Source: Thermoleophilaceae bacterium (GTDB lineage: Bacteria > Actinomycetota > Thermoleophilia > Solirubrobacterales > Thermoleophilaceae). Taken from it: a stretch of DNA of 48,929 bases. The position numbers and the translations under genes were made by a program. The stretch's first letter is position 1, and each line of letters starts with the position of its first letter. The notes beneath the pieces are model-generated. The model worked only from the letters and a program-made list of their open reading frames with translations. It searched no databases and was not told where the DNA came from. This document shows positions 15,422 to 20,873 of the stretch, in pieces. The DNA lies in NCBI GenBank assembly GCA_025937135.1, contig JAICRZ010000002.1:1-48929 (forward strand), read 5' to 3'.

Positions 15422-16558
15422 ATGACGGCGGATGAGCTCAGCGCCGCGGTCCGGCGCTTCGTGGAGGAGACCGTGCTGCCCCACGTGGACGAGTGGGACC
15501 GGCGCGACGACCTGCCCGACAGCGCGCTCCGCCGCCTCGTCGAGCTCGGGCTCCCGGGGGCGATGGTGCCGACCGAGTACGGCGGCCGCGGCCTGACCGT
15601 CGCCGACCTCGTCCCGGCCTGGCGCGCCCTCTCGCACGGCTGGATCTCGCTCACCGGCGCGGTGAACCCGACCGGCCTCGCCACCGCGCTGCTCGTCCGG
15701 CACGGGACGGAGGACCAGCGCCGCCGCTGGCTGCCACTCATCGGCCGAGGCGAGGCGCTGGCGTCGTTCTCGATCACCGAGCCGCAGGCCGGCAGCGACC
15801 TGGGCCGCATCGAGACGAGCGCTCGCGCGCGCGACGGCGGAGGCCTCGTGCTCGACGGCGAGAAGCGCTGGGTGGCCGGCGGGGCGTCGTCGGACGTCGT
15901 CTTCCTCATGGCCGAGATGGAGGGCTCCGAGAAGCCGTCGTGCGTGGTGCTCCCGGCGGACGGCCGCGGTGGCGCGAGCTGGCAGGTCGGCGAGCTCGAC
16001 AAGGTCGGCTACCGCGGCGTCGAGTCCGCGGCCTACCGCTTCGAGGAGCACGAGTCGCCGGGCGCGGAGATCCTCGGCGGCCACGAGGCGATCGGCAGCG
16101 GCGCGCGGCAGATGCTCGACGCCCTCGACGTGGGCCGCGTGAATGTCGCGTGCCGAGCGCTCGGCATCGTGGACCGCTGCATCGAGTGCGCGGTCGAGGA
16201 GTGCACCACGCGCGAGGTCGGCGACGGGCTGCTCGGCCAGCACACGCACGCGCAACTGCGCGTGGGCGAGCTGATCGCCAGGCGCGCGGGCGTCGAGGCG
16301 CTCACGCAAAAAGCGGCAGCGGCCGTCGACGAGCGCTCGGAGCTCGCCCGCGAGCTCTCGACATCGGCCAAGCTCGTGGCTTCAGACACAGCGGTCTGGG
16401 CCGTGGACGCGGCGGCGCGCCTGGCCGCCAGCCGCTCCTACGCGGCGGGCGACGAGCTCGCCCGGCTGCGCCGCGACGCGCCGCAGACCGAGATCGGCGA
16501 GGGCGCGAACGATGCGCTGCTGCTCGCGCTGGCCAAGCCGGCGCTAGATCGCCAGTAG
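15422..16558 (+). CDS. Acyl-CoA dehydrogenase (FadE-like)
   Basis: 378 residues. FAD- and substrate-binding segments are visible: ASFSITEPQAGSDLGRI (about 115-131) is the classical ACAD signature, DGEKRWVAGG is the following strand, and EIGEGANDALL near 359-369 aligns with the IYEGTs region that holds the catalytic Glu in many members. It would insert the first double bond of an acyl chain, passing electrons to ETF. It forms an operon with the TetR gene and its end overlaps the convergent hydrolase by 15 bp. Chain-length preference cannot be read. Confidence 0.9.
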   Translation: MTADELSAAVRRFVEETVLPHVDEWDRRDDLPDSALRRLVELGLPGAMVPTEYGGRGLTVADLVPAWRALSHGWISLTGAVNPTGLATALLVRHGTEDQRRRWLPLIGRGEALASFSITEPQAGSDLGRIETSARARDGGGLVLDGEKRWVAGGASSDVVFLMAEMEGSEKPSCVVLPADGRGGASWQVGELDKVGYRGVESAAYRFEEHESPGAEILGGHEAIGSGARQMLDALDVGRVNVACRALGIVDRCIECAVEECTTREVGDGLLGQHTHAQLRVGELIARRAGVEALTQKAAAAVDERSELARELSTSAKLVASDTAVWAVDAAARLAASRSYAAGDELARLRRDAPQTEIGEGANDALLLALAKPALDRQ

Positions 16559-17317
16559 CTCGCGCGCGATCGCGTCCGGGGCGTCGTACGTCGGCACGTG
16601 CCCCGCGCCCTTCAGCGGCACGAGCCGCGCGTCCGGCAGCACGCGCACCGCGCGCGGTCCCTGGCGCGGCAGCAGCAGGAGGTCGCGCGTGCCCCACATG
16701 ATCGTGACCGGCACGGTGATCTCCTGGCCGCCGGTGAAGGTGACGCCGTGGATGGCGATCAGCGTGGCGTCGAAGCCCGGGCTGCCGCCGAGGTTCTGGA
16801 ACATGCCGACGGCGTCGTCGGGTGGGATCGCCCACGGGCGCGCGACCATTCCGGCGAACAGCGGCGTGCGGGTGACCGGGTTGCGGATGAGCGGGACGCC
16901 GCGCGTGTGCATCGCCCTCGCGAACGCGCGCTCGACGCGCAGCCGCCCCTTGGCAAACGCCTGCTCGCGCGGAAGCCCGAAGCCGGCCGGCGAGATCCCT
17001 GCCACGGCGCGGGCGCGCCCGCGGCGGGCCACCTCCAGGGACACCCAGCCGCCGAGCGAGTTGCCGGCCACGAGCGGTCGCTCGAGCCCGAGCTCGTCCA
17101 TCAGCTCGATCACCTTCTCGGCGAGGCGCCACGGCGTCGGCTCGTCGCCGTCCGGCAGCGCGGGCGAGTCGCCGAAACCGGGAAGATCCAGCGCGACCAC
17201 GTCGCGATGCGGCGCGAGGTGCTCGAAGAGCGGGCGCCAGACCTGCCACTGGCTGCCGATCCCGTGGATCAGGACGAGCGGCTCACCCGACCCGAGTCGC
17301 TCGTGGTTCAGCGACAA
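16544..17317 (-). CDS. Alpha/beta hydrolase
   Basis: 257 residues. LVLIHGIGSQWQVW gives the oxyanion HG motif, AGNSLGGW (about 93-100) the nucleophile serine elbow, WGTRDLL the likely acid Asp, and GAGHVPTYD the catalytic His. The start must be TTG 17317, 4 nt after the R2lox stop, since no ATG/GTG fits; the two are almost certainly one operon. It could release or process the product of the lipid oxidase, for example by ester or thioester cleavage; that is inference. Confidence 0.88.
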   Translation of the reverse strand: MSLNHERLGSGEPLVLIHGIGSQWQVWRPLFEHLAPHRDVVALDLPGFGDSPALPDGDEPTPWRLAEKVIELMDELGLERPLVAGNSLGGWVSLEVARRGRARAVAGISPAGFGLPREQAFAKGRLRVERAFARAMHTRGVPLIRNPVTRTPLFAGMVARPWAIPPDDAVGMFQNLGGSPGFDATLIAIHGVTFTGGQEITVPVTIMWGTRDLLLLPRQGPRAVRVLPDARLVPLKGAGHVPTYDAPDAIARELLAI

Positions 17318-17321
17318 GCTG

Positions 17322-18584
17322 TCAGCGCCCGAGCAGCTTCGGCATTCGCATCAGCAGGCGCAGGTTGCCACGCGGGCGCAGCTTCAGCTTGGCCATCGCG
17401 AGGCGCGGATCCTCGCGGCCGGCGACGATGTCGGCCCAGTCCTCGAAGCCGCAGCGGAAGGTGAGGTCGGGGTCCTCGAGACGCCCCTGCACCGCGCGCG
17501 TGTTGCCGTTGTCCACCACGATGTGCCATGGCTGCGTGTCGGTGAAGTCCCACTGGAGCTTCACGCCGCCGTTCGGCGTCGCGTCGGTGTCGACCACGCG
17601 TGCGATGAAGTCGAACAGCAGGCCGACGGTCTCCGGGTCGCGCGCCGGCGGCCCGGTCTTCTCGCCGAAGATCCCCGCACGCACGAGGGCGATCGCGCGC
17701 TCGGCGCGCTCGTGTGCCGACATGCCGAGCGGGATCGGCGGCGGCCCGGGCAGCTCCTCGAGCGCGCAGCCGGCCGCGCGCAGCTTCTGCTCGAGCGACG
17801 TCATGCCGTGCTCGTACACGTCGAGCATGGTCGAGCCGAACGACTCGATGTAGCGCATGTCCCAGTTCGGCGGGACGAAGACGCCGACCGTCATCGGGAG
17901 CACCTCGCGGAGCAGGTCGGCGATCGCCGCGCGGCAGTCGGGGTCCTCCTTGACGAGGTCGCTGATGCACTTCACGCCGAAGCCGATGTGGCGCTGCTCG
18001 TCGCGCGAGACGTTCTCCATGCCGGCGCGGAAGCCGGGCAGCACGCCGCGCTCGGTGAGGTAGCCCTCGATGAAGTGCTGGCCGGGCTGCGCGAGCGTGG
18101 CCTCCACGATCAGGTGGTACATGCAGATCGAGCGCGCGAGGTTGGGCTTCGACTTGTCCTTGCGCAGCTCGTCGGCGACCCGGTCCAGCTTCTCGAACGT
18201 CTTGCGGAAGCCCCAGGTCAGCTCGGGCTGCGTGGCGGCGAGCGAGCCGGACACGTCCTCGCCGCGCTCCACGACCTCCTTCATGAAGCGGGCGAAGAAG
18301 ATCGAGTGGCGCGCCTCGTCCACCTGCTGGGTGGCGAGGAAGTACTTCTGCTCCTCGCGTGGCGCGGCGTCGATGTAGGGCGACAGGTTGTCGGTGACCG
18401 AGTCCTCGCCGTGGAAGAACATCGCGTAGTTCCACAGCGCGCCGCGGCGTTCGATGTCGGTGAACTTCTCGTGCCAGTCGCCGCGGTCCTCGGAGAAGTC
18501 GAGGTCGGTGGCGCTCCAGTTGCCCTTCTCCCAGCGCCGGTACAGGTCGCCGTACGAGATCCGGTCCATCGCGACCGTTGCCAT
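17322..18584 (-). CDS. R2-like ligand-binding oxidase (R2lox) fused to an SCP2 lipid-binding domain
   Basis: 420 residues from ATG 18584 behind GGAGA. Residues ~20-285 are a ferritin-like dimetal domain with Glu60, Glu90-x2-His93 (DEARH), Glu161, and Glu195-x2-His198 (DEQRH), the spacing of class Ic R2/R2lox proteins. Val63 (third after the first Glu) and Tyr156 (fifth before Glu161) are at the positions of the Val-Tyr ether crosslink in M. tuberculosis R2lox. R2lox proteins carry a Mn/Fe site and a bound long-chain fatty acid and are not ribonucleotide reductases. Residues ~315-418 add an SCP2 sterol-carrier domain (VKLQWDFTDTQPWHIVVDNG to the end). A lipid oxygenase or desaturase with a built-in lipid carrier is the likely reading. 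It is probably co-transcribed with the downstream hydrolase. Confidence 0.88.
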   Translation of the reverse strand: MATVAMDRISYGDLYRRWEKGNWSATDLDFSEDRGDWHEKFTDIERRGALWNYAMFFHGEDSVTDNLSPYIDAAPREEQKYFLATQQVDEARHSIFFARFMKEVVERGEDVSGSLAATQPELTWGFRKTFEKLDRVADELRKDKSKPNLARSICMYHLIVEATLAQPGQHFIEGYLTERGVLPGFRAGMENVSRDEQRHIGFGVKCISDLVKEDPDCRAAIADLLREVLPMTVGVFVPPNWDMRYIESFGSTMLDVYEHGMTSLEQKLRAAGCALEELPGPPPIPLGMSAHERAERAIALVRAGIFGEKTGPPARDPETVGLLFDFIARVVDTDATPNGGVKLQWDFTDTQPWHIVVDNGNTRAVQGRLEDPDLTFRCGFEDWADIVAGREDPRLAMAKLKLRPRGNLRLLMRMPKLLGR

Positions 18585-18627: not shown

Positions 18628-19401
18628 CTACCCGTCGACTGGCTGGCCAGCCAACTCGATCACGCGGGCCTGCTCCGGCTCGCGTTTGCCCTTCAGCGTC
18701 AGGCTGGCCGGCCTGGCTTCGGGGTGGGCCGAGCGCAGCCGTGCGAACAGTCGCTCGGACAACACCACCTGGCCCGCGGCCGCCGCAGATTGGAGCCGGG
18801 CGGCGGTGTTGACCACGTCGCCGAGCGCGGTGAAGTCCTTGACGTCGCCCGCGCCGACGTTGCCCACGTAGGCGGGCCCGACGTCGACACCCACGCCGAT
18901 TCGCAGCCGTCCCTCGCCCAGCAGCTCGACGGCGTCACGCAGCATGTCGTCCTCGAAGTCCTCGGACAGGAGCTGCGGGACGTAGAGCGCCATCACCTCG
19001 TCGCCGACGAGCTTGTCGATGATGGCCGAGCGACTCAGGATCCTGCTCGCCGCGGAGTAGAACGGCGCGAGCAGCTCCGCGACCTCGTCGGGCGTCATGT
19101 CCTGCGACATCTCGGTGAAGCCGCGCACGTCCGCGAACAGCACGCCGATCTCCATCTCGACGCCACCCATCGGGGCCATCTCGAAACACGTGTTGCACAG
19201 CCCCGGGTTCTTCCGCGACGGCCCGTAGCCGAAGCGCCGCATCACGCGGCCGCCGATTCCGCCGTACGGCGCGTTGCAGAGCCGGCAGCGCGGGTCCGAC
19301 GGCAGGTGGCGCATCACCCGCATGAACGCGCGCGGCAGGTGGCGCTCCATCAAGCGGAAGAAATCGACGTCCGCCGCGTCGCCGCGGACCTCCGTCTTCA
19401 T
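18628..19401 (-). CDS. Class III adenylate/guanylate cyclase with N-terminal zinc finger
   Basis: 257 residues from ATG 19401. Residues 39-72 form a likely four-Cys zinc site (CRLC and CNTC). The cyclase domain (~83-215) keeps both metal Asp residues (Asp91 in FADVRGFT, Asp134 in KLVGDE), the purine-contact Lys130, and transition-state Asn198 and Arg202 (GDVVNTAAR). The second base-contact residue is Thr191 (FTALGD) instead of Asp, as in many bacterial class IIIb adenylate cyclases. It should therefore be active and soluble, making cAMP more likely than cGMP. A TAATCT box precedes the ATG by 6 nt. The zinc module may sense redox or metal state; that is inference. Confidence 0.88.
   Translation of the reverse strand: MKTEVRGDAADVDFFRLMERHLPRAFMRVMRHLPSDPRCRLCNAPYGGIGGRVMRRFGYGPSRKNPGLCNTCFEMAPMGGVEMEIGVLFADVRGFTEMSQDMTPDEVAELLAPFYSAASRILSRSAIIDKLVGDEVMALYVPQLLSEDFEDDMLRDAVELLGEGRLRIGVGVDVGPAYVGNVGAGDVKDFTALGDVVNTAARLQSAAAAGQVVLSERLFARLRSAHPEARPASLTLKGKREPEQARVIELAGQPVDG
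18640..18653. promoter_or_regulatory. Perfect 14-bp palindrome upstream of R2lox gene, candidate TetR operator
   Basis: TGGCTGGCCAGCCA is a perfect palindrome inside the last codons of the cyclase gene, 55 bp upstream of the R2lox ATG. A 12/14 match lies at 14782-14795 at the TetR promoter. The inner 12 bp also occur once at about 31990 inside an unrelated gene, so chance is not excluded. Confidence 0.45.
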
Positions 19402-19407
19402 GGTGCG

Positions 19408-19413
19408 AGATTA
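19408..19413 (-). promoter_or_regulatory. Probable -10 box TAATCT for the cyclase gene
   Basis: On the minus strand TAATCT ends 6 nt before ATG 19401. Its first three bases are the TAA stop codon of glyS. Confidence 0.5.
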
Positions 19414-20763
19414 AGCGCCGAGCTTGGGGGAGCGCCAGTCGGCATGCAGCCGCCTCCGGAGCTCCGCGCTCAACTCGGTGATCGCGATCCGCGACTGGTC
19501 GAGCGTGTCGCGGTCGCGCAGCGTGACGGTCTCGTCCTCGAGCGTCTGATGGTCCACGGTGACGCCCCACGGCGTCCCGATCTCGTCCTGGCGCCGGTAG
19601 CGCTTGCCGATCGAGCCGCCGGTGTCGAACTCGGCCGGCATCAGCTCGCGCAGCTCCTCGTAGATCCTGCGCGCGAGCTCCGGCTGGCCGTCCTTGTTCA
19701 CGAGCGGGAGCACCGCGACCTTCACGGGTGCGAGGCGGGGGTGGAGCCGCAGCAGCACGCGCTCGCGGCCCTCGACGGTCTCCTCGTCGTAGGCGTCGAC
19801 CATGAACGCGAGCATCGCGCGATCGGCGCCGGCGGCGGGCTCGATGACGTGCGGCACGTAGCGGTCGCCGGTCGCGGAGTCGACGTACTCGAGCTTCTCG
19901 CCCGAGTGCTCGGCGTGCTGCTTCAGGTCGAAGTCGCCGCGGTTGGCCACACCCTCGAGCTCCGACCAGCCCATCGGGAAGAGGTACTCGACGTCGGCGG
20001 TGCCGCTCGAGTAGTGCGACAGCTCGTCGGGGTCGTGCTCGCGCAGGCGCAGGTGGTCGGGCCGGATGCCGAGCTGCTCGTACCAGTCGCGCCGCGCGCC
20101 GCGCCAGAACTCGTACCACTGCTGCGCCTGGTCCGGCGGGACGAAGAACTCCATCTCCATCTGCTCGAACTCGCGGGTCCGGAAGATGAAGTTGCCCGGC
20201 GTGATCTCGTTGCGGAACGACTTGCCTACCTGCGCGATCCCGAACGGCGGCTTCTTGCGCGCGGTCTGGAGGGCGTTCTTGAAGTTGAGGAAGATGCCCT
20301 GGGCGGTCTCGGGGCGCAGGAACACCTCGGAGCCCTCGTCCTCGACCGGGCCGACGTGCGTGCGGAACATCAGGTTGAAGTGGCGCGGCTCGGTGAGGTC
20401 GCCACCGCACTCGGGGCACTTGAGCTCGCCCTCCGGCTGGGCCTCGCGCAGGTGGTCGGCGCGCCAGCGGCGCTTGCACTTGCCCAGGCACTGGACGAGC
20501 GGGTCGCTGAACCCCGCCAGGTGACCCGAGGCCTCCCACACCTTCGGGTGCAGGATGATCGCGCTGTCGAGCGCGACGATGTCGTCGCGCTCGCCGATCA
20601 TCGCGCGCCACCACTCGTTCTTGACGTTCGTCTTGAGCAGGACCCCGTAGTGGCCGTAGTCGTAGGCGGAGCCCAGCCCGCCGTAGATCTCCGACGACTG
20701 GAACAGGAAGCCGCGGCGCTTGCAGAGCGCCACGATCTTGTCCATCGTCACCACGTCGGCCAT
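19411..20763 (-). CDS. glyS: Glycine--tRNA ligase (homodimeric type)
   Basis: 450 residues from ATG 20763. This is the single-chain (alpha2) GlyRS also found in eukaryotes and archaea. Class II motifs are present: FRPETAQ-type VFLRPETAQGIFLNF (motif 2 region), GKSFRNEITPGNFIFRTREFEQMEME, and a C-terminal anticodon-binding domain from about 345 (APVKVAVLPLVNK). CPECGG near 116 with CLGKC supplies a zinc-site pair. It charges tRNA-Gly. A TACTCT box lies 8 nt before the ATG. Its TAA stop overlaps the promoter of the cyclase gene. Confidence 0.96.
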   Translation of the reverse strand: MADVVTMDKIVALCKRRGFLFQSSEIYGGLGSAYDYGHYGVLLKTNVKNEWWRAMIGERDDIVALDSAIILHPKVWEASGHLAGFSDPLVQCLGKCKRRWRADHLREAQPEGELKCPECGGDLTEPRHFNLMFRTHVGPVEDEGSEVFLRPETAQGIFLNFKNALQTARKKPPFGIAQVGKSFRNEITPGNFIFRTREFEQMEMEFFVPPDQAQQWYEFWRGARRDWYEQLGIRPDHLRLREHDPDELSHYSSGTADVEYLFPMGWSELEGVANRGDFDLKQHAEHSGEKLEYVDSATGDRYVPHVIEPAAGADRAMLAFMVDAYDEETVEGRERVLLRLHPRLAPVKVAVLPLVNKDGQPELARRIYEELRELMPAEFDTGGSIGKRYRRQDEIGTPWGVTVDHQTLEDETVTLRDRDTLDQSRIAITELSAELRRRLHADWRSPKLGA

Positions 20764-20771
20764 GGCGGCGG

Positions 20772-20777
20772 AGAGTA
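20772..20777 (-). promoter_or_regulatory. Probable -10 box TACTCT for glyS
   Basis: Minus-strand TACTCT ends 8 nt before ATG 20763; the intervening CCGCCGCC holds no ribosome site. Confidence 0.45.
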
Positions 20778-20873
20778 GTGCGTCCCCACCGAGAACCCGC
20801 AAATCGCGGCTTTTCGCTCTGACAACCGGCGTTTCTCGTCGCCGTCTTGGGGTAATTTCCGGAGCGAGGGGCC

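Follow-up and report, generated by a model that had tools for sequence, protein, structure and literature searches.

The R2-like ligand-binding oxidases (R2lox) have been solved from Mycobacterium tuberculosis (3ee4), Geobacillus kaustophilus (GkR2loxI, 4hr0), Sulfolobus acidocaldarius and Saccharopolyspora erythraea. These structures were determined before the reaction was known, and the fatty acid bound in the crystals could be a substrate, a product or a contaminant. The solved proteins co-purify with long-chain fatty acids lodged in a hydrophobic channel to the metals, and the G. kaustophilus enzyme (GkR2lox) carries an ether crosslink between Val72 and Tyr162 (PMC6060897). Its Ala171 lines the fatty-acid tunnel, a position taken by Phe in all groups of ribonucleotide reductase (RNR) R2 proteins (PMC6399176), among which the class Ic R2 of Chlamydia trachomatis has a Mn/Fe cofactor (PMC4118035). 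GkR2loxI has been reported to degrade C10–C24 alkanes, and its gene cluster runs to beta-oxidation (PMC10867098). Here we describe a protein encoded on a 48,929-nucleotide stretch of a Thermoleophilaceae bacterium genome (GCA_025937135.1, contig JAICRZ010000002.1, positions 1 to 48,929; hereafter the window), in which an R2lox-type domain is joined in one chain to a sterol carrier protein 2 (SCP2) lipid-carrier domain. R2lox and SCP2 also occur together as a fusion of reverse order and as separate genes of plasmid clusters, and this pairing in three arrangements suggests that R2lox enzymes oxidise lipids handed over by SCP2. Whereas SCP2 domains fused to lipid enzymes are already known, our literature search for R2lox paired with SCP2 or a sterol carrier found no publication, in line with the remark of an earlier interpretation of this DNA, made from its letters alone (the sequence-only reading), that no characterised R2lox-SCP2 fusion is known.

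Anatomy and conservation of the fusion

The fusion is encoded on the minus strand by a single open reading frame with an ATG start, of 420 amino acids (17322–18584 including the stop; Table 1). The Pfam model Ribonuc_red_sm matches residues 13–227 above its curated cut-off (E = 1.8e-18) and the Pfam SCP2 model matches residues 342–418 (E = 5.1e-9; 36.8 bits against a gathering threshold of 21.3). When searched against solved structures, a profile of the SCP2 part retrieved sterol carrier and lipid-transfer proteins (best match 2c0l_B, E = 3.9e-11), including sterol carrier protein 2 itself, multifunctional enzyme type 2 and sec-alkylsulfatase. Further, in an AlphaFold2 model of the whole fusion the order of five strands and helices predicted with high confidence for this part agrees with the SCP2 fold. 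Thus, the C-terminal SCP2 domain that the sequence-only reading had placed at about residues 315–418 is confirmed by the Pfam match and by the profile matches to solved SCP2 structures. The profile searches likewise speak to the two outcomes that would have contradicted that reading, an ordinary NrdB or a missing SCP2 fold: R2lox models scored best and SCP2 lay above its Pfam threshold.

Within the order of the window, matches to the fusion were found in 182 of 232 genomes, at least 131 of which encode the full-length two-domain frame free of stops. Named homologues include those of a Thermoleophilaceae metagenome-assembled genome (89% identity) and of Solirubrobacter soli DSM 22325 (59%). The fusion is also present, at about 40–46% identity, in another class of the phylum (family f10), and in family f15 at 39%. 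It is thus conserved across the whole order and reaches another class, and is not a local feature. That two genes were joined by a sequencing or annotation accident is the least probable of all the explanations considered here, to the point of being negligible: we found no point in its favor, and the uninterrupted architecture, which recurs at 39–89% identity in another class and in 131 or more genomes of the order, S. soli DSM 22325 among them, refutes a local gene-joining event. The joining of R2lox and SCP2 in a single protein, as first read from this one frame, therefore holds as an architecture conserved across the order.

Metal site and class assignment

Alignment with GkR2lox places Val63 and Tyr156 of the fusion at the crosslinking Val72 and Tyr162, in agreement with the sequence-only reading, which had matched them to the Val-Tyr crosslink of M. 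tuberculosis R2lox. All six R2-type metal ligands that it listed are present; however, the last two are Glu196 and His199 rather than Glu195 and His198. Phe97, at position +4 from the first His ligand, occupies the column of the radical Tyr of class Ia/Ib R2 proteins. We compared ten key columns (E60, V63, E90, H93, position 97, Y156, E161, A165, E196 and H199) across the aligned proteins. The pattern EVEHFYEAEH is found in 45 of the 48 fusion proteins, in all seven reverse-order fusions (SCP2-SCP2-R2lox, see below), in 28 of 31 grouped stand-alone proteins and in 10 of 12 reference R2lox-type proteins, whereas five RNR R2 proteins of the phylum, of the radical-Tyr type, read DVEHYFEFEH. Ala stands at the A171 column in 48/48 fusion proteins, and Phe in all seven RNR R2 proteins compared. 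With 45 of 48 fusions keeping the whole set, the joint presence of the ligands, the Val and Tyr and the marker Ala is far beyond chance. The Val and Tyr pair by itself is not exclusive to R2lox, because two further R2 proteins that have Phe in the A171 column (EVEHFYEFEH) carry both residues, and we rejected it as a stand-alone signature. Unlike the pair, the complete ten-column set is diagnostic of R2lox in these alignments.

The class assignment is also borne out by the NCBIfam profiles, the top five of which are all named "R2-like ligand-binding oxidase"; the best of them gives 127.3 bits where 194 are required, and the fusion lies below the curated cut-offs of all the R2lox models. It therefore represents a divergent R2lox subfamily outside the curated equivalogs, and the sub-cut-off score is not evidence against membership of the wider group. 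The solved sequences nearest to the first domain are the R2lox proteins of G. kaustophilus, Sulfolobus, Saccharopolyspora and M. tuberculosis. The AlphaFold2 model, built with 48 sequences of the protein's own family, has a mean predicted local distance difference test (pLDDT) score of 94.1 and a predicted template modeling score (pTM) of 0.92, and sets the ligand and crosslink residues on four long core helices (43–66, 77–105, 146–179 and 183–213). A Foldseek search of the PDB with this model gave R2lox structures as each of its 33 best matches (TM-score on target up to 0.82), with class Ic R2 ranking next. In a tree computed by a quick method, the fusion falls on the R2lox side, separated from the RNR R2 proteins at 100% in the Shimodaira–Hasegawa-like approximate likelihood-ratio test (SH-aLRT), and the C-terminal fusions sit together on a single branch (SH-aLRT 81, its core 99). 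On residues, predicted fold and tree, the window protein hence belongs to the R2lox group, broadly defined.

The Pfam Ribonuc_red_sm model does span the ferritin-like domain, as would be seen if the protein were an NrdB, the RNR small subunit, with an accessory domain. We nevertheless reject this as highly improbable: the radical Tyr is replaced by Phe97, residue 165 is Ala and not Phe, the first ligand is Glu, and the tree splits the fusion from the RNR R2 proteins. Moreover, the sole RNR large subunit detected in the window's genome, which is 82% complete, is a fragment of a B12-dependent NrdJ at a contig end (G000:C227, L163), and we found no ordinary NrdB in that 82%. The choice of R2lox over NrdB in the sequence-only reading thus agrees with the NCBIfam models, the nearest structures, the tree and the Ala165/Phe97 markers. 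The matches also touch on the kind of chemistry. An R2lox-like two-metal enzyme could carry out a lipid reaction other than hydroxylation, such as desaturation, aldehyde deformylation or N-oxygenation, and the fusion weakly resembles the profiles of AurF and of fatty acid desaturase and also matches two-metal enzymes of the VlmB-like and deformylating kinds (6d9f, 8wvr). The R2lox matches are, however, much stronger than those of AurF type, and the R2lox-specific Ala165 and the Val63/Tyr156 pair are retained, leaving such a reaction a rather unlikely alternative.

Four fusion paralogues of family f10 (L049, L050, L051 and L098) have lost Glu60 (to Val or Ile) together with the crosslink Tyr (to Cys or Thr), and three of them have also lost His93. 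These are likely degenerate or repurposed copies; at least one such genome (G311) also encodes an intact fusion (L041). Since Glu60 and the Tyr are lost together, this joint decay supports a role of the Tyr at the metal site; the four proteins form one branch of the tree and therefore record one loss event rather than four.

Reverse fusions, plasmid clusters and gene neighborhoods

The window's genome encodes two further R2lox-like genes, one stand-alone (L002) and one of reverse order (L003:1477-3174, minus strand; G000:C179:15648-17342), the latter a single frame of 565 amino acids in which two SCP2 domains precede R2lox. This frame is found at full length in five other genomes at 54–68% identity, in addition to partial or interrupted copies, and hence is no accident. 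Within the order the reverse fusion is conserved in six genomes or more (L003, L103, L104, L105, L107 and L108), with a length of 550–585 amino acids; variants include one split into two frames (G228) and one with a single stop (G220). Pfam recognizes two SCP2 stretches and Ribonuc_red_sm in L003, L103 and L107, although the Ribonuc_red_sm score of L003 (33.3) is slightly below the cut-off of 33.6. Structure prediction for the reverse fusion reached moderate confidence (pLDDT 73, pTM 0.56). In the tree, its R2lox part groups with the stand-alone paralogues, apart from the window type, and joining of R2lox and SCP2 by fusion has therefore most likely occurred twice.

A protein search of plasmids yielded R2lox relatives in 35 records, none of them an R2lox-SCP2 fusion (0/35 reach 80% coverage of the window protein). 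The Rhodococcus plasmid loci (including L133, L137, L176, L177 and L178) instead hold R2lox and SCP2 as separate genes of a cluster that comprises an alcohol dehydrogenase dependent on N,N-dimethyl-4-nitrosoaniline (NDMA), a FAD/NAD oxidoreductase, a ferredoxin, R2lox (the order varies), an aldehyde dehydrogenase, an SCP2 protein and a fatty-acid-CoA ligase. We found this cluster with its separate SCP2 gene in R. opacus B4 (pROB01), R. oxybenzonivorans, R. opacus 9 (where MCE/permease genes come next) and Rhodococcus sp. ZPP and BH4 (the last with inserted transposases); in a sixth, Rhodococcus sp. 008, read to +7 kb only, the first half of the cluster is seen. Two mycobacterial plasmids (loci L134 and L139) have R2lox clusters that also include an alcohol dehydrogenase and a fatty-acid-CoA ligase, and between R2lox and the ligase they encode a "hypothetical protein" that is homologous to the Rhodococcus SCP2 and that Pfam alone scores at 18.8 bits, below the cut-off. 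A different subfamily of R2lox-like proteins, in an apparent biosynthetic cluster, has Phe for the crosslink Tyr and Gly or Ala for the Val (L136 and L180 on Streptomyces plasmids, and L058); the two Streptomyces proteins are annotated as ribonucleotide reductase beta subunits.

The neighborhood of the C-terminal fusion that is common to the order is made up of housekeeping genes, namely glyS, a Lon-like gene and an FmdB-like gene. This speaks for old vertical inheritance over a pathway cluster; among 38 loci compared, 16 have the glycyl-tRNA synthetase-like gene upstream of the fusion. In the window, a nucleotidyl cyclase with an N-terminal CxxC...CxxC region sits between this gene and the fusion. 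Both the cyclase and the hydrolase downstream were dropped as operon clues, the hydrolase being conserved beside the fusion only within the genus and the cyclase not at all. An acyl-CoA dehydrogenase gene (15422–16558, plus strand) lies two genes from the fusion in the window, and three of the five f10 loci inspected (L081, L082 and L098) have acyl-CoA dehydrogenase genes to either side of the fusion.

Table 1. Features of the R2lox-SCP2 fusion and its adjacent genes in the window
Feature	Position	Strand	Basis or remark
R2lox-SCP2 fusion coding sequence	17322..18584	-	420 aa; full-length stop-free homologues
R2lox-type ferritin-like domain, residues ~11-275	17760..18554	-	Pfam, NCBIfam, PDB matches, Foldseek
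Linker, residues 276-314, one predicted helix (290-302)	17643..17759	-	Structure model
SCP2 lipid-carrier domain, residues ~315-418	17331..17642	-	Pfam, SCP2 profile match, predicted strand/helix pattern
Glu60, first metal ligand (Glu; class Ia/Ib R2 has Asp)	18405..18407	-	Alignment
Val63, equivalent to crosslinking Val72 of GkR2lox	18396..18398	-	Alignment, PMC6060897
Glu90-x-x-His93, metal ligands	18306..18317	-	Alignment
Tyr156, equivalent to crosslinking Tyr162 of GkR2lox	18117..18119	-	Alignment, PMC6060897
Glu161, metal ligand	18102..18104	-	Alignment
Ala165, equivalent to Ala171 of GkR2lox, fatty-acid tunnel lining (Phe in RNR R2)	18090..18092	-	Alignment, PMC6399176
Glu196-x-x-His199, metal ligands	17988..17999	-	Alignment
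Alpha/beta hydrolase, begins 4 bases past the fusion stop	16544..17317	-	Pfam; same place only in same-genus genome
Nucleotidyl cyclase, 43 bases upstream of the fusion	18628..19401	-	Pfam; not conserved beside the fusion elsewhere
Glycyl-tRNA synthetase-like gene	19411..20802	-	Pfam tRNA-synt_2b and anticodon domain; neighborhood cluster 1

Proposed function and comparison with known systems

Given the three R2lox-SCP2 arrangements, the binding of fatty acids by R2lox and the reported consumption of alkanes, our best reading, to which we give a probability of roughly 0.6, is that the fusion is an O2-dependent oxygenase of lipids or alkyl chains, with SCP2 as the carrier of its hydrophobic substrate or product. 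For the fusion we infer the identity of the metals, the formation of the crosslink, the lipid substrate, the direction of transfer and the electron donor along the following lines. The window protein would be a soluble oxygenase of the R2lox group that activates O2 at two metals and has a lipid carrier in the same chain. Its SCP2 domain may pick up a hydrophobic molecule (a fatty acid, an alkane or another alkyl lipid) from the membrane or the cytosol and present it to the tunnel of the R2lox domain, where a Mn/Fe or Fe/Fe center, having formed the Val63-Tyr156 ether crosslink, would hydroxylate or otherwise oxidize it with electrons from a separate ferredoxin or reductase. SCP2 may equally pass the product to dehydrogenases and an acyl-CoA ligase whose genes lie elsewhere. 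That the attached carrier supplies the substrate, as the sequence-only reading had it, is still something we infer, now with better support from the reverse fusion and from the SCP2 genes of the R2lox clusters.

Several observations weigh against this lipid-oxygenase reading. The alkane activity of GkR2loxI comes from crude lysate and was only slightly lowered by a double mutant of the ligands (PMC10867098). The R2lox loci on Geobacillus, Haloterrigena and Streptomyces plasmids have no SCP2 within 8 kb, and no SCP2 lies near the chromosomal R2lox loci L171–L175 or the stand-alone paralogues L140 and L147–L159. Likewise, in the compared loci of the order no ferredoxin, dehydrogenase or ligase is fixed beside the fusion, which has no conserved operon partner. 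SCP2 could also be a sensor, a membrane or acyl-CoA anchor or a product carrier rather than a feeder of substrate, with R2lox oxidizing a small or protein-bound molecule. The occurrence of one or two SCP2 copies on either side of R2lox, which requires no fixed tunnel-to-tunnel geometry, fits such a role, as does the Rhodococcus SCP2 gene between the aldehyde dehydrogenase and the acyl-CoA ligase, at the product end of the pathway. However, the pTM of 0.92 suggests that the C-terminal fusion holds its two domains in a fixed arrangement, and fatty acids bind in the tunnel of R2lox itself (PMC6060897); we therefore regard this alternative as doubtful, if less so than a reaction other than hydroxylation.

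The lipid-oxygenase reading can be extended to a general R2lox-SCP2 pair for oxidizing membrane-derived alkyl lipids, joined three times (as clustered genes, as a C-terminal fusion and as an N-terminal tandem fusion), in which the window protein would pass lipid straight from the SCP2 pocket into the R2lox tunnel and so be a self-contained soluble Mn/Fe lipid hydroxylase. This extension is tentative, and we rate its chances at somewhat below even. Together, the repeated independent joining of R2lox and SCP2 and the clusters leading from alcohol to acyl-CoA point to lipid oxidation as the physiological role. The pairing offers concrete proteins and partner genes with which the role of R2lox can be tested, and the fusion has a built-in substrate handle in that the lipid held by its SCP2 domain is a candidate substrate.

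Compared with the solved R2lox proteins, the fusion has the same two-His/four-Glu ligands, Val/Tyr pair, tunnel Ala, Phe at the radical-Tyr column and fold; it differs in its identity of only about 25–30%, its additional C-terminal SCP2 domain of about 110 residues and its scores below the NCBIfam cut-offs. With the class Ic R2 of C. trachomatis (NrdB) it shares Glu as first ligand and Phe at the radical-Tyr position, whereas class Ic R2 has Phe at the A171 column, has no known fatty-acid tunnel and partners with a class I large subunit. The plasmid clusters of Rhodococcus (R. opacus B4 pROB01 and others) resemble the fusion in pairing R2lox with SCP2; there, however, SCP2 is a gene of its own and R2lox (L133) belongs to the curated PRK08326.1-2 type, and the window has no gene cluster of this kind around the fusion. 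On the SCP2 side, the presence of the domain in one chain with a lipid enzyme recalls the peroxisomal multifunctional enzyme type 2, SCP2-thiolase and sec-alkylsulfatase, which rank among the closest relatives of known structure for the SCP2 part. In these proteins the partner of SCP2 is a hydratase/dehydrogenase, a thiolase or a sulfatase, whereas the partner in the fusion would be a two-metal oxygenase.
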